From Cristatella mucedo (Eukaryota; Bryozoa; Phylactolaemata; Cristatellidae): DNA of 64,000 nucleotides. Below are positions 6,325 through 60,190 of the stretch, in pieces. The notes under the pieces are model-generated. The model did not search any database and was not told the origin of the DNA. It worked only from the letters and a program-made list of their open reading frames with translations. The DNA is taken from assembly GCA_009760855.2 (NCBI GenBank), contig WPIO01000046.1, positions 1 to 64,000 of the forward strand, in the 5' to 3' direction. The translations under genes and the position numbers were made by a program. The number at the start of each line of letters is the position of its first letter. Within the stretch, counting starts at the first letter, position 1.

Positions 6325-6493
6325 CGATTAGGCGGGTGCTTTTCACGATCTTGTGCCCGAGGTCACGTGGGTTCGATTCCGGCGGTGGGCAATTCCTTAT
6401 CGCCGCTGCAAGCGGTGGTGATAGCCGTTAATGCTCTCCTGTCGTTAAACCAAAGTGGCTGTTAAATCAGCTAGAATTAACTTATTTTTATTT
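6325..6493 (+). mobile_element. SINE-A copy
   Basis: Contains the B box GGTTCGATTCC, the diagnostic body CGCTGCAAGCGGTGGTGATA, then GGCTGTTAAATCAGCTAG and a T-rich tail (TTATTTTTATTTG). The 5' head is diverged. Confidence 0.85.
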
Positions 6494-8716: not shown

Positions 8717-10645
8717 ACCACAGACATTAAACTAGCCAAGTCTACTAAACGAAAGCTTGAAAAGGCATACAAAAGATCCGGACTAACTGTCCATCGACAA
8801 GCATATGAAGACCGTGTGTAGTGTAGGTCGTACCAATCGATCCTAGCAAAGGCCAAGTCTAGCTTCTATAGAAACATTGTTGAATCACAGATGCACAATC
8901 CAAAAATGCTGATGTCGACAATAAACCATCTCCTCAACCGTTCCCAGGTTAGCTCCTTACCTGATGATCCTTGTGATGATCTAGCCGATCGCTTCTCTCG
9001 ATTCTTTGTGCAGAAGATAGACAAGATCAGGGAATCCATCCCTGCGATGACAACCTTCCCACTAGAATGCTGTTCCTCGGTTCCTGGCTGCGCCTCAATG
9101 TCTGCATTTAAGCAGGTCACTAGTGATCTAGTCCTAAAGCTCGTATCTCAATCAAAGAAGACAACAAGTCCATTGGACCCTATTCCCACTGTCCTGCTCC
9201 TACGTTGCATTGATCTGCTGCTGCCATACATAACCAACATCAATAATATGTCATTAGCCTCAGGTCAGGTTCCAGCACCTTTCAAGAAAGCTGTAGTCAG
9301 GCCACTTCTCAAGAAAGCTACACTAGACCAAGAGAACTTAAGCAACTACCGCCCAGTCTCCCTTCTACCATTCCTATCAAAGACACTGGAACGGGTCGTG
9401 GCGGATCAGCTAAACTCCTATATCAAAACCTCACACCTTGCTAGTAAGTTCCAGTCTGGCTTTAGAGCTAATCACTCCACAGAGTCAGCATTGCTTCAGG
9501 TATACAACGACCTACTTAGGAATGCAGACATGGGTAGAGTGTCTCTTCTTGTTTTGCTCGATCTTTCGGCAGCTTTTGATACCATCGATCACAAAGTACT
9601 TCTAGAGCGCCTCTCATCTCGCCTGGGCATCACTGGCACTGCTCTGCAGTGGTTCAGGTCCTATCTCAGTGGGAGACTCCAGAGTATTGACGTGAATGGA
9701 CAAAGATCATCTGAAGTACCTCTAAAATATGGAGTACCTCAGGGCTCAGTGCTAGGTCCGGTCCTTTTCACGGTTTATACTCTGCCTCTTGCTGATGTGA
9801 TTGCCAAGCACAATCTAGGCTTTCACTTCTATGCGGATGACACTCAGTTGTACCTTTGCTTTGATCCCTCCCAGCCTTCGAGCACCTCAAATTCTCTCAA
9901 CTCACTTGCTGCATGCATGGATGACATCCGCACATGGATGGCAGCAAATTTTCTAAAACTAAACGATGATAAAACTAACTTACTAGTTAGGGGCAAACCC
10001 AGTGTGATTCAGAAATTGGAAAGGCTGACTTTCAAAATTGGCTCTGCCAGCATATCTCCAGTTGAATCAGCTCGAAATCTAGGTGTCATATTCCAAAGCG
10101 ACCTCTCTTTAGACGACCACATCAGCTCCGCAGTCAAATCTTACATTGCTAACATTCGGGCTTGTTTAGATAATACCACGTCCAAGTTGGTCCATGCATT
10201 CGTGACATCCCGTTTCGACTTCTGCAACTCACTGCTTACTGGCCTACCAGCATGTGCGATCAGGTGATTGCAGCTGGTGCAAAACTCTGCAGCTAGGCTT
10301 GTCTGTCGTGAGCGTCGCAGTTGACAAATTACTCCACTTCTCGCCGACCTGCACTGGCTACCAGTGAGGCAACGGATTGACTTCAAGGTTTTGTCGCTCA
10401 CTTTTAGGTCTCTTCATTCTATGGCTCCAGCCTATCTTTCAGATATACTACCCCATCAGGCCAAGCATCGTACCACCCGCTTCTCGGAATCCAACAGTCT
10501 GGAAATACCTCGTATAAACCTTAAATCCTTTGGAGACCGTGCATTTAGTTCGTATTCTCCCAAAGCCTGGAACTCCCTCCCGACCTGCGTCAGAACATCC
10601 CCTGACCTGACCACATTTAAAAGGAACTTAAAAGCACCTATTTAG
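8717..10645 (+). pseudogene. LINE-A ORF2 reverse transcriptase, broken
   Basis: The frame reads from the truncation point through the reverse transcriptase to a shortened C-terminus. Numbered from the Met at 8,891: NYRPVSLLP (152-160), [10 protein letters not shown] (224-233, catalytic Asp), GVPQGSVLGP (281-290), YADD (314-317, catalytic pair), then the thumb. These are diagnostic of non-LTR reverse transcriptases of the L2/CR1 group, which copy element RNA at nicked target DNA. Three in-frame stops break it: TAG 8,819-8,821, TGA 10,265-10,267 and TGA 10,322-10,324; the second matches CGA in other copies. Compared with the 34.6-kb copy it also lacks a short in-frame piece after HISSAVKS. The C-terminus ends early (10,645) through loss of two bases relative to copies ending in RTAFSGSL. 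Confidence 0.93.
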
Positions 10646-20227: not shown

Positions 20228-20832
20228 TGCCTGTCACGGGCGCCGCCGCCTTCCTCGCGGGCGCCGCCGCCTTCCTCGCGGGCGCCGCCGCCTTCCTCGC
20301 GGGCGCCGCCGCCTTCCTCGCGGACGCCGCTGACTGTCGCCTCAGCCACACCGCTGACCGTTGCCTCGCACAACGCCGTTGCTTCGTCGAACACCATCGC
20401 AGCCTGATCAACAATTACCGCTTTGAGAGCCGTTGCTTGCCGCCACGGCGTGGCAGCCTGACAAACCTCTGTCGACCGGCAAACAGTCGGTGATCGCTGC
20501 TGCCGCTTCCGGTCGCTCCTGTCGGCCCTCTCAGTCCGACCAGCCTTTACCCGATCAGCGTGCAGTAATCGCGCTCTACCGGCCGGCGAGGTGAATGCCC
20601 TCACTAGGGCCTCACGAAGGTTGGCATAGTCATCATGAACTGCCTGCGGGAGCCTCGAGGCAAGCGTGAAGCCTTGCATCGCAAGGAGCAAAAACAAGTA
20701 CCACTCACTCGGTTCGCAGTCACTTTTCTTGATCTCCCTCTCGAAGTTCAGCAGCCAGCCAACGAAGTCTCCGAAGCCATCGAAGCCTAGGGACGCTGCA
20801 CAAGACATCTCCCAGGGCGTCATCGGCTCCAT
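20200..20832 (-). CDS. gag-like protein of the LTR element
   Basis: About 210 codons. The start chosen is the ATG at 20,832, only 14 bp inside the 5' LTR; the open frame continues upstream into the LTR without need. The N-terminal half resembles the capsid-type gag of Ty3/Gypsy-like elements: DFVGWLLNFEREI, then EWYLFLLLAMQGFTLASRLP, then YANLREALVRAFTS, matching the usual pattern of an aromatic-rich helix, a leucine/alanine helix and a final LREALxxAF helix. A basic linker follows, then four copies of the heptapeptide REEGGGA near the C-terminus. No zinc knuckle (CxxC...H...C) is visible. A conventional primer-binding site next to the LTR is not obvious because the ATG is so close. Assignment as gag is by pattern, not by search. 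Confidence 0.7.
   Translation of the reverse strand: MEPMTPWEMSCAASLGFDGFGDFVGWLLNFEREIKKSDCEPSEWYLFLLLAMQGFTLASRLPQAVHDDYANLREALVRAFTSPAGRARLLHADRVKAGRTERADRSDRKRQQRSPTVCRSTEVCQAATPWRQATALKAVIVDQAAMVFDEATALCEATVSGVAEATVSGVREEGGGAREEGGGAREEGGGAREEGGGARDRHWPAMECNP
20238..20321. repeat. Four perfect 21-bp tandem repeats inside gag
   Basis: Unit GGGCGCCGCCGCCTTCCTCG plus C, four times; in the minus-strand gag frame it encodes REEGGGA. The period is a multiple of three, so the frame is kept. Confidence 0.95.
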
Positions 20833-34662: not shown

Positions 34663-34840
34663 GAGCCGTGATGGCACACTAGGTAAGGCGGTTGCTTTCA
34701 CGCCCTCGGTCCCGAGGTCGTGGGTACGATTCCTGCGGTGGGCGATTGTTTATCACCACTGCAAGCGGTGGTGATAGCCGTAAAGGCTCTTCTATCGCTA
34801 TACAAAAAGAGGCTGTTAAATCAGCAAAGGGTTTATTTAT
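34663..34840 (+). mobile_element. SINE-A unit 1 of a tandem pair
   Basis: GAGCCGTGATGGCACACTAGG head, quoted in part as GAGCCGTGATGGCACACTAG, B box GGGTACGATTCC, perfect body hairpin TATCACCAC ... GTGGTGATA, end GGCTGTTAAATCAGC and GGTTTATTTAT. Young copy, nearly identical to 60,004-60,190. Confidence 0.93.
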
Positions 34841-35013
34841 GGTGAGCTGTAATGGCTCACTAGGTAAGGCGGTTGCTTTTCACGACCTCGGTCCCGAGGT
34901 CGTGGGTTCGAATCCTGTGGTGGGCGATCCTTTATCGCCACTGCAAGCGGTGGTGATAGCCGGCAAGGCTCTTCTGTCGCTATACAAAAAGAGGCTGTTA
35001 AATCAACTTTTTT
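34841..35013 (+). mobile_element. SINE-A unit 2 of a tandem pair
   Basis: Follows unit 1 directly (GTGAGCTGTAATGGCTCACT head; GGTTCGAATCC B box). Ends GGCTGTTAAATCAACTTTTTT at the return to LINE-A. The heads differ, so it is not a simple duplication of unit 1. Confidence 0.92.
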
Positions 35014-35484
35014 GTGACATCCCGTCTCGACTTCTGCAACTCACTGCTCGCTGGCCTACCGGCATGTGCGATCAGGCGATTGCAGCTGGTGCAAAACTCT
35101 GCAACTATGCTTGTCTGTCGTGAGCGTCGCAGTTGCCACATTACTCCACTTCTCGCCGACCTGCACTGGCTGCCAGTCAAGCAACGGATTGACTTCAAGG
35201 TTTTGTCGCTCACTTTTAGGTCCCTTCATTCTATGGCTCCAGCCTATCTCTCCGACATACTCCCCCATCAGGCCAAGCATCGTACCACCCGCTTTTCGGA
35301 ATCCAACAGTCTAGAAATACCTCGTACAAACCTTAAATCCTTTGGAGACCGTGCATTTAGTTCGTATTCTCCCAAAGCCTGGAACTTCCTCCCGACCTGT
35401 GTCAGAACATCTCCTGACCTGACCACATTTAAAAAGAACTTAAAAACACACCTATTTAGGACAGCATTTAGTGGGTCCCTGTGA
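35014..35484 (+). pseudogene. LINE-A ORF2 C-terminal part
   Basis: 156 codons from TSRLDFCNSLLAGLPACAIR to a full-length C-terminus THLFRTAFSGSL and TGA. In this copy the two positions that are stops in the 8.7-kb copy are Arg (CGA) and Cys (TGC). It is the downstream half of the SINE-interrupted ORF2. Confidence 0.92.
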
Positions 35485-35821
35485 TTCGTCTTTGATGTGC
35501 TTATGCGTGCTGACACTGTGCATGCTGCCACTAACCACATTTGCATGCTGACCCTGTGCATGTCACCCCTAAACATGTTATTCATTTTGTTTGTTTTTCA
35601 AGCATGATTTTACTTACCATTTAATTGCATTTCCCTTTCCAGCAAATGTAAAGCGCCTAGAAAGAGATTGAGTTCTCTGAGGGCGCTTTATCAAGTGCAT
35701 TATTATTAATATTATTATTTAGTAACCCGCTGGCAGTCCTATGCCGGAGCGCTATATCAGCCAGAATATGGCAGCCCTCGAGATTGCCTGCTAATCCTAA
35801 ATTACGACCGATTAATTATTA

Positions 35822-43989: not shown

Positions 43990-43993
43990 ATTT

Positions 43994-44019
43994 GAGCCCG
44001 ATGGCGGTAACCCGGGTTA
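43994..44019 (+). repeat. Left terminal inverted repeat
   Basis: Pairs with 44,801-44,826. Contains the palindromic core AACCCGGGTT. Confidence 0.85.
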
Positions 44020-44120
44020 GCATGGTAACCCGGGTGCGAGCGGACTGCGATAAGTACCTAAATGTTGGTCAAAATTGTATGCAAAAGGCCAACAATGTCG
44101 GGATCGTCGAGTTCTATTCG

Positions 44121-44679
44121 TCAGCAGAAAGACAGCAATTTCGAAAACGATAATTTTAATTGATCAAGTGCGCAGCGGTTGACCAGATCCAGGGCAAGGA
44201 ACCAGGGCTCGATCACGAAAATTGAGCCTATTTTTTTGAGAAATAGCTTAAGATTGATGGCTGATTTGGGACAACCACTGGTGCCATCTTCGGGCGCCAC
44301 ACAGAACGTATACGCACGCCCGGAGCAGCCTTCTGCGCTGATGCTCTTTTTATCTGCCACGAGTCTGCGCCATATGCCGGATGCCGCCGCCAACAGGTCA
44401 ATATCGCCAATATCATCCGGATCTTCGTCCTCACTGTCAGCGATACTACCCAGGCGAGCACTGGCGCAGCGATTTCGGACCTCCTGCATAATCTTTTCAG
44501 ACCAGCGGGGGGGGGGCAATGAAGTTCCCGGGAAATGTTTCCAAGAACTTGCACACCAGTTCCATTGCGTTGTTAAGAACATAATTGCTAACATCTTTTA
44601 TGTCGTCATTAAAGCCAACCATAGCGTGCATCCTTTCATGGAGCTCTTGCGCACAGAGTTCTTCAGATTGCTTCGACAT
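44121..44679 (-). pseudogene. Unrecognised ORF inside the inverted-repeat element
   Basis: Starts at the ATG at 44,679, preceded by an in-frame stop about 27 nt upstream. The first 60 codons (SKQSEELCAQELHERMHAMV, then VSNYVLNNAMELVCKFLETF) run into a C10 tract (44,507-44,516) and stop. A second frame, open from 44,594 to 44,121, continues with SEKIMQEVRNRC, an acidic stretch SIADSEDEDPDDIGDIDLL, WRRLVADKK and a hydrophobic end (IGSIFVIEPWFLALDLV). A one-base slip in the C10 tract would link them into roughly 185 residues, so either the tract length is wrong in the sequence or the gene is frameshifted. No family recognised; it could be a transposase remnant, an accessory protein or captured host sequence. 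Confidence 0.5.
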
Positions 44680-44800
44680 GACTCTGACGGTGCTGCTCCT
44701 GCATCAGGTCAGCGGCGGTTTCAACTTGGAAACGCTCTATTTTTAGAGCAGCTATCCGCAAAATAAAGAATTAATTGCGATTGTACTTGTGGAAATTCGA

Positions 44801-44826
44801 TAACCCGGGTTACCATCATCGGGCTC
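44801..44826 (-). repeat. Right terminal inverted repeat
   Basis: Reverse complement of the left end except two positions. Confidence 0.85.
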
Positions 44827-44956
44827 ATTTACCGAATCAAGTACGACCCGGGCTTCGCGCATAAAGTCAATTAGGGGAATATGAGTACTAATACTAATAT
44901 CAATAACAGGGTCTTACGTGCAATGTCTTTACTGCAAAAGCATTCAAATCTCTATC

Positions 44957-47725: not shown

Positions 47726-48030
47726 TAGCATATTTCCCGACGACCATTGCTCTTACAGCCCTAACAGACTGCGAGGACGGCGAATTTCAGCCAGGCAAAA
47801 GAAAATGGCTGACGCCGAGCACAGAAGATGCTCTCTGACGCAGGACTGACGGCTTCCGCACCTACATGCTTTGTCGTGTAGCTGCATATATTCTGGAAAG
47901 TTAGGTAATGAGCAGCAGTGACCAGGCAACCTGACGAGGCTACTAGCGGTAAAGCGCGGATGACCTGCAACAGTAGTCAGTCTTCTTTTCGACCGCTGCC
48001 GGTCTGCTGTACAGATAGTTTCAGTGGGTA

Positions 48031-48383
48031 ATAATAATAATAATAATATTGCACTTGATAAAGCGCCCTCAGAGAACTTAATCTCTTTCTAGGCGCTTTA
48101 CATTTGCTGCAAAGTGATACGCAATAGAATAGTAAGTAAAATCATGCTTGAAAAACAAACAAAATGAATAACATGGTTAGGGGTGACATGCACAGGGTCA
48201 GCATGCAAATGTGGTTAGTGGCAGCATGCACAGTGTCAGCACGCATAAGCACATCGAGGACGAATCACAAGGACCCACTAAATGCTGTCCTAAATAGGTA
48301 TGTTTTTAAGTTTCTTTTAAATGTGGTCAGGTCAGGGGATGTTCTGATGCAGGTCGGGAGGGAGTTCCAGGCTGTGGGAGCAG
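48031..48383 (-). mobile_element. LINE-A 3' end
   Basis: (TAA)n, reverse hairpin, 3' UTR and the last codons (KTYLFRTAFSGSL) up to CCAGGCTGTGGGAGC. Nearly identical to the 55-kb copy, so young. Confidence 0.92.
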
Positions 48384-48560: not shown

Positions 48561-48778
48561 ATTCATTCACGGACGTTGTACTCCCTAGTATACGAAGTAA
48601 CGGAAATTTAAATTCGATACACTGCTCGACGGAGAGCCCGGACAGGTATGTCAGAAGTATTATTACGTGGCAGTTGAAAATTCTCGAAAGACAACCTCAG
48701 GTGCAGATTTTGCACCGCACAGCTGCAGTAGTCTTGCTGCACTGTTAGGAAGACCCGCAAATCGTGAGTTACAGAAGT

Positions 48779-49569
48779 AATAATAATGCTCTCGATAAAG
48801 CGCCCTCAGAGAACTCAATCTCTTTCTAGGCGCTTTACATTTGCTGGAAAGGGAATTGCAATTAGATGGTAAGTAGAATCATGCTTGATAAACAAAAAAA
48901 ATGAATAATATGGTTAGGGGTGACATGCACAGGGTCAGCATGCAAATGTGGTTAGTGGCAGCATGCACAGTGTCAGCACGCATAAGCACATCAAGGACGA
49001 ATCACAGGGACCCACTAAATGCTGTCCTAAATAGGTGTTTTTAAGTTCCTTTTAAATGTGGTCAGGTCAGGAGATGTTCTGACGCAGGTCGGGAGGGAGT
49101 TCCAGGCTTTGGGAGAATACGAACTAAATGCACGGTCTCCAAAGGATTTGAGGTTTGTACGGGCTATTTGTAGACTGTTGGATTCCGAAAAGCGGGTGGT
49201 ACGATGCTTGGCCTGATGGGGGAGTATATCTGAAAGATAGGCTGGAGCCATAGAATGAAGGGACCTAAAAGTGAGCGACAAAACCTTGAAGTCAATCCGT
49301 TGCTTGACTGGTAGCCAGTGCAGGTCGGCGAGAAGTGGAGTAATGTGACAACTGCGACGCTCACGACAGACAAGCCTACCTGCAGAGTTTTGCACCAGCT
49401 GCAATCGCCTGATCGCACATGCCGGTAGGCCAGCGAGCAGTGAGTTGCAGAAGTCGAGACGGGATGTCACGAATGTATGGACCAACTTGGACGTGGTATC
49501 CTTATCTAAACAAGCCCAAATTTTAGCAATGTTATGAAGCTGAAAATAGGCAGATTTGACTGTTTGTTG
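48779..49569 (-). mobile_element. LINE-A copy with probable target duplication
   Basis: 790 bp, flanked by AGAAGT at 48,773-48,778 and 49,570-49,575. Contains the reverse hairpin, 3' UTR, and ORF2 from SAYFQLHNIAKI onward. Confidence 0.9.
49027..49485 (-). pseudogene. LINE-A ORF2 C-terminal part
   Basis: 152 codons, open from LVHTFVTSRLDFCNSLLAG to a truncated C-terminus KRNLKTPI, the same two-base loss seen in the 8.7-kb copy. Otherwise intact, with RRLQLVQNSAGRLVCRERRS at the site where the 8.7-kb copy has stops. Confidence 0.92.
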
Positions 49570-54892: not shown

Positions 54893-55413
54893 ATTGACTT
54901 CAAGGTTTTGTCGCTCACTTTTAGGTCTCTTCATTCTATGGCTCCAGCCTATCTTTCAGATATACTACCCCATCAGGCAAAGCATCGTACCACTCGCTTT
55001 TCGGAATCCAACAGTCTAGAAATACCTCGTACAAACCTTAAATCCTTTGGAGACCGTGCATTTAGCTCGTATGCTCCCACAGCCTGGAACTCCCTCCCGA
55101 CCTGCGTCAGAACATCCCCTGACCTGACCACATTTAAAAGAAACTTAAAAACATACCTATTTAGGACAGCATTTAGTGGGTCCTTGTGATTCGTCTTCGA
55201 TGTGCTTATGCGTGCTGACACTGTGCATGCTGCCACTAACCACATTTGCATGCTGACCCAGTGCATGTAACCCCTAACCATGTTATTCATTTTGTTTGTT
55301 TTTCAAGCATGATTTTACTTACTATTCTATTGCCTATCACTTTGCAGCAAATGTAAAGCGCCTAGAAAGAGATTAAGTTCTCTGAGGGCGCTTTATCAAG
55401 TGCAATATATTAT
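54893..55413 (+). mobile_element. LINE-A 3' end, young
   Basis: Begins within ORF2 at ATTGACTTCAAGGTTTTGTC, with an open frame to TYLFRTAFSGSL (TGA 55,187-55,189), then the 3' UTR, an intact hairpin and a short AT-rich end. Confidence 0.93.
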
Positions 55414-55427
55414 CAACTCCGGCGGAT

Positions 55428-55451
55428 GGGTGGGTGGGTGGGTGGGCGGGG
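55428..55451 (+). repeat. (GGGT)n G-quadruplex motif
   Basis: Six G-tracts of three or more separated by single bases. Single-base loops favour a very stable parallel quadruplex. Starts 15 bp after the LINE-A end. Confidence 0.9.
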
Positions 55452-60003: not shown

Positions 60004-60190
60004 GAGCCGTGATGGCACACCAGGTAAGGCGGTTGCTTTCACGACCTTGGTCCTGAGGTCATGGGTTCGATTCCTGCGGCGGGAGATTCTTTATCGCCAC
60101 TGCAAGCGGTGGTGATAGCCGTAAAGGCTCTTCTGTCGCTATACAAAAAGAGGCTGTTTAATCAGCTAGGATTTATTTATTTATTTATTT
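60004..60190 (+). mobile_element. SINE-A, reference copy with target duplication
   Basis: Perfect 7-bp duplication ACAGTTT at 59,997-60,003 and 60,191-60,197. Order: tRNA-like head, hairpin-rich body (CCACTGCAAGCGGTGG; AGCCGTAAAGGCT), GGCTGTTTAATCAGC and (ATTT)n tail. Young. Confidence 0.95.
60013..60074 (+). promoter_or_regulatory. Internal RNA polymerase III promoter (A and B boxes) of SINE-A
   Basis: A box TGGCACACCAGG at 60,013-60,024 and B box GGTTCGATTCC at 60,064-60,074, close to the tRNA consensus and spaced as in tRNA-derived SINEs. Confidence 0.75.

Follow-up and report, generated by a model that had tools for sequence, protein, structure and literature searches.

What is the 833-bp element at positions 43994-44826 of the window (the whole analyzed stretch of 64,000 nucleotides from Cristatella mucedo), and does its open reading frame (ORF) belong to it or to some other gene? 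The first-pass annotation had described an inverted-repeat element that may be a new non-autonomous DNA transposon family, or one that has taken up another gene. The anatomy that it listed is all present: the element is bounded by ATTT on each side, its 26-bp terminal inverted repeats (TIRs) match at 24 of 26 positions, a second GGTAACCCGGGT lies inside the left end, and the minus-strand ORF, starting from its own ATG, is split into two pieces in different frames on either side of a C10 tract (Table 1). Considering all data, we assign a probability of roughly 85% to the reading that this is a decayed non-autonomous copy of a cut-and-paste DNA transposon, internally deleted and moved in trans, and of the Sola2 type by description.

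Table 1. Features of the 833-bp element and its flanks (window coordinates).
Feature	Position	Strand	Basis
Left target-site duplication, ATTT	43990..43993		sequence
Left TIR, 26 bp in the window copy	43994..44019	+	inverted-repeat comparison
Extra subterminal GGTAACCCGGGT	44024..44035	+	also present in the family consensus
Left retained parent segment, with the 3' part of the transposase gene (minus strand)	43994..44448		alignment to long relatives
Second ORF piece, other frame	44121..44594	-	amino-acid match to long relatives
Internal-deletion junction, about 1.9 kb of the parent missing	44446..44448		alignment to long relatives
Right retained parent segment, with the 5' part of the transposase gene (minus strand)	44446..44826		alignment to long relatives
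ORF from ATG, 60 aa (MSKQSEEL...), N-terminal transposase piece	44497..44679	-	amino-acid match to long relatives
C10 run on the coding strand (G10 on plus)	44507..44516	-	frame shift between the ORF pieces
Right TIR	44801..44826	-	inverted-repeat comparison
Right target-site duplication, ATTT	44827..44830		sequence

In the family consensus the TIR is 28 bp long and perfect, and the left one ends in a perfect 16-bp palindrome, GGTAACCCGGGTTACC, which starts at consensus positions 13 and 796, within the ends. The core motif GGTAACCCGGGTTA, allowing up to 2 mismatches, occurs five times in the window, all inside the element, with 0.19 occurrences expected. Other copies of the ends had been suggested as a check, and they were found: the end pattern GAGCCCGATGNNGGTAACCCGGGTTA with up to 2 mismatches has 333 matches (166 + 167) in the genome that the window comes from (572 Mb in 688 contigs), 100 of these places being listed, and the reversed pattern used as a control has none (0 + 0). 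The excess of the core motif in the window, together with these end matches, means that the element is not a product of chance.

The search of the same genome with the element and its flanks yielded 44 matches from the best 40 scored of 462 candidates. These are the window copy, 39 others, mostly almost full-length and with identities of 83-87%, and 4 short matches to the ends. At least 176 matches, from the best 150 scored of 891 candidates, were obtained with the 157-aa ORF piece; all these genome counts are lower bounds. In total, 113 loci (numbered with the prefix L below) were collected, many of them repeating one place or lacking one end, and 67 distinct elements had exactly one left and one right end, each within 6 substitutions. 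The mean divergence of 53 aligned copies from the consensus is 8.1%, or 6.2% when CpG-type sites are left aside, and hence the burst is not recent. The family is possibly uncatalogued, but it is an ordinary non-autonomous one, of a known kind.

The flanks of the 67 elements carry perfect 4-bp duplications in 30 cases, and at least three of the four bases agree in 51, while random re-pairing of the flanks (2000 shuffles) yields 10.4 perfect pairs on average and 20 at most. The perfect duplications are ATAT (12), ATTT (9), AATT (4), AAAT (4) and AACT (1), so that 29 fit AWWT and all 30 have A in the first and T in the last position. These types were tallied on 66 elements, the 67th, L109, having no perfect pair; it is one of the 37 copies of which this is true. 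At other lengths the flank agreement in the same 67 elements is 20 (2 bp), 2 (3 bp), 0 (5 bp), 3 (6 bp), 0 (7 bp) and 2 (8 bp), where the 2-bp agreement is expected given the ATAT targets.

To find empty sites, the two flanks of each of the 67 copies were joined and searched for in all collected loci and in the window. Matches crossing the insertion point were obtained for 10 of 67 copies, besides L004, which is a self-match. In the four alignments inspected (L008, L030, L061, L095) a related repeat of the window is continuous across the site and has the target once (ATTT, CATA, AAAT and ATAT, respectively); these repeats belong, or are related, to the window's retroelement. The empty-site check proposed earlier thus succeeded in part, with paralogous empty sites for other copies, while the joined flanks of the window copy matched only its own two flanks. 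The many copies, the AWWT duplications and the empty sites of other copies bear out the first half of the initial interpretation, a non-autonomous DNA transposon.

Longer relatives with a transposase, also anticipated in the first-pass annotation, do exist, and they carry a decayed transposase gene between ends of the same kind. L109 is a 2545-bp element with ends at 0 and 2 mismatches and flanks AATT/ATCT; about 2.1 kb of it is matched by L111 (83%) and L113 (81%), whose full length is probably about 2.7 kb, one end of each being outside the stretch examined. L090, of 1237 bp with the same kind of ends, carries a transposase-like piece. Aligned with L111 and L113, the 833-bp consensus splits into a left block (1-448) and a right block starting at 446 or 450, separated in the long elements by 1904 bp (L111) and 1886 bp (L113); the two blocks share 3 bp (CTA) in the L111 alignment and none in the L113 one. 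In L109 the right block also begins at 446, and the left block stops at 327. In window coordinates, left-segment matches of L110, L111, L113, L090 and L018 end at 44448 (earlier in L109), and right-segment matches of L109, L111, L112, L113 and L018 start at 44446-44450. The longer coding elements thus share the ends of the short one, which lacks their internal part at one junction, and this is best read as the result of a single internal deletion that was copied many times afterwards.

The reverse order of events, in which the 833-bp form came first and later received the 1.9-kb middle as an insertion, is highly improbable. It could draw on the prevalence of the short form, since among the collected loci, mostly fetched by similarity to that very form, the junction is spanned by 78 distinct sequences and broken in 9 loci at 8 places. 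Yet the transposase core lies in this middle, flanked by the N- and C-terminal parts of the same protein and oriented as they are, and the partial relatives L090 and L018 keep different parts of the middle, as deletions would leave them.

Comparison with the same long relatives accounts for the ORF. The piece beginning with the ATG is 75-82% identical at the amino-acid level to L109, L111 and L112, and 57% identical to L113. The second piece consists of about 28 aa out of frame, followed by the rest of the N-terminal part and then by an acidic C-terminal tail and downstream sequence; the tail and the downstream part match L090, L110, L111 and L113. In L111 a single open frame covers the part that follows the core and terminates with the acidic stretch. 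Judging by these alignments, the ORF that had been called unknown combines the N-terminus of the transposase with its acidic C-terminal tail and lacks the catalytic core. The C10 tract is a private frame-shifting change of the window copy, as it alone among 53 aligned copies has a G run longer than 3 in this place, GGGTGG being found in 32 of 53.

The second half of the initial interpretation, the uptake of another gene, is accordingly not supported: in the alignments the two halves of the ORF correspond to opposite ends of the transposase gene of this very family, brought together by the internal deletion, and the reading of the ORF as a captured or selected gene is largely refuted. That it is a captured host gene, or an accessory gene under selection in the short element, now has very little probability. 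The consensus minus-strand frame is open over 139 codons, and its observed-to-expected ratio of replacement to silent changes is somewhat below 1 (0.71 in the N-terminal part, 0.74 for the whole), but the test is weak: the same DNA read in the plus-strand frame has a ratio of 0.84, a transition weight of 2 was assumed, and the 53 copies were selected by the presence of both ends and by length (780-860 bp) rather than at random. Moreover, stop codons are present in most of the listed matches of the ORF piece, a part of the 176, and in the Pfam scan of the window's ORFs no family reached its cut-off.

Near the left end, an open frame on the plus strand, which converges with the transposase gene, was also observed at consensus positions 103-651 and at 724-1125 of L113, with the sequence MSGSSSS (MLGSSSS in L113). 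It was considered as a second gene, and the two stretches scanned have no Pfam match.

The part of the transposase missing from the short form can be approached through the long relatives. All transposase copies examined are broken; still, pieces from separate broken copies share the stretch IADLSSG and stretches resembling LFIVLDNCVGQNKS and LPGHTHNQAD. The Asp residues of IADLSSG, VLDNCVG and PGHTHNQAD form a candidate DDD triad, with a catalytic role that is plausible from these fragments. In the Pfam scan the pieces of L113 and L112 match DUF7869, annotated in Pfam as a domain of unknown function, with 33.4 and 36.8 bits, respectively (cut-off 26 bits), the L110 piece scores 18.7 and 19.1 bits, under the cut-off, and the pieces of L090 and L109 have no match to this domain.

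Genome-wide, DUF7869 has three matches from 14 candidates, each of them above the cut-off, with 47.3, 34.4 and 33.6 bits. All three places are already among the matches of the L090 transposase-like piece, which number 36 at E <= 0.1, itself included. The domain was found in none of 14 control genomes, and no relative of it was found in the viral contigs searched. Searches of PDB sequences yielded either no match or four with E of 0.067-0.5 to unrelated proteins, none of them significant. We consider it likely that, in Sola2-type elements, DUF7869 forms the catalytic domain of a DDD transposase, in which case the proteins carrying it elsewhere would be transposases or domesticated ones. The three DUF7869 matches found in this genome all fall in one AWWT-duplicating transposon family, which suggests a specific, testable function for the domain.

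Sola elements were reportedly first described in 2009. For Sola2, one study describes AT-rich 4-bp AWWT duplications, including ATAT, AAAT and ATTT (PMC3627910), and for Sola in general another gives a DDD transposase, 4-bp duplications, TIRs of 11-1124 bp and, in most cases, lengths of 2-9 kb (PMC10741241). The family described here resembles these elements in several respects. Its perfect target duplications are of the same length and, apart from the single AACT, of the same AWWT type; the TIRs of 26 bp (window copy) and 28 bp (consensus) lie within the reported range of 11 bp or more; and the parent, of 2.5-2.7 kb, has a putatively DDD-like transposase. Derivatives without most of the transposase region, DFa-1 and DFa-3, are likewise described for Sola2 (PMC3627910). 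In TIR length the family differs from the cited amoebozoan ones, with 26-28 bp as compared to 12-13 and 21 bp.

In Repbase, according to PMC4455052, non-autonomous elements are filed by duplication length and terminal bases, a family being matched at terminal positions 1-11 to another non-autonomous one with a duplication of the same length. The element is also similar to miniature inverted-repeat transposable elements (MITEs), being short, non-autonomous and present in many copies, with inverted ends and target duplications, though its 833 bp slightly exceed the 800-bp limit of a MITE database (PMC5199201), and it keeps both ends of the parent's gene. Membership in Sola2 is a good fit that we infer from published descriptions of Sola and Sola2, not from transposase homology.

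A transposase from another, possibly unnamed, DDD superfamily with 4-bp AWWT targets would yield the same anatomy and history. This we regard as rather unlikely, since AWWT, the 4-bp duplication, the length of 2.5-2.7 kb, the TIR length and the putatively DDD-like core all agree with Sola and Sola2 as described, even though the features matched to them are only the target, the length and the triad, each by description, and the name DUF7869 does not occur in the literature returned for DUF7869 or Sola2.

Under the Sola2-type reading, the parent of about 2.5-2.7 kb would have encoded one transposase on the strand corresponding to the window's minus strand. In one parent copy, a deletion of about 1.9 kb would then have removed the entire DDD-like catalytic region while sparing both ends. 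As suggested by its anatomy, the short form was probably mobilized in trans by the transposase of the parent, which presumably bound the palindromic GGTAACCCGGGTTACC, a putative binding site in each end. The enzyme would cut at GAGCCC and insert the element into AWWT targets, producing the 4-bp duplication, and the copies would have decayed since.

Some other repeats of the window deserve mention. An ORF at positions 8822-10267 of the plus strand encodes the reverse transcriptase of a retroelement (RVT_1, E = 1.2e-32), and stretches downstream of it recur at 35011-35724, 48018-48382, 48760-49499 and 55072-55429. Two copies of the transposon family, L089 and L056, seem, when read by eye, to contain inserted pieces of this retroelement. 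Another repeat, at 6366-6454, 34719-34807, 34901-34989 and 60060-60148, has a GGGTTCGATTCC-like stretch resembling the B box of tRNA genes, and is possibly a tRNA-derived SINE; ARAGORN found no tRNA gene in the window. Finally, a tandem 21-bp repeat, GGCGCCGCCGCCTTCCTCGCG, occupies positions 20239-20327, inside open frames of both strands.
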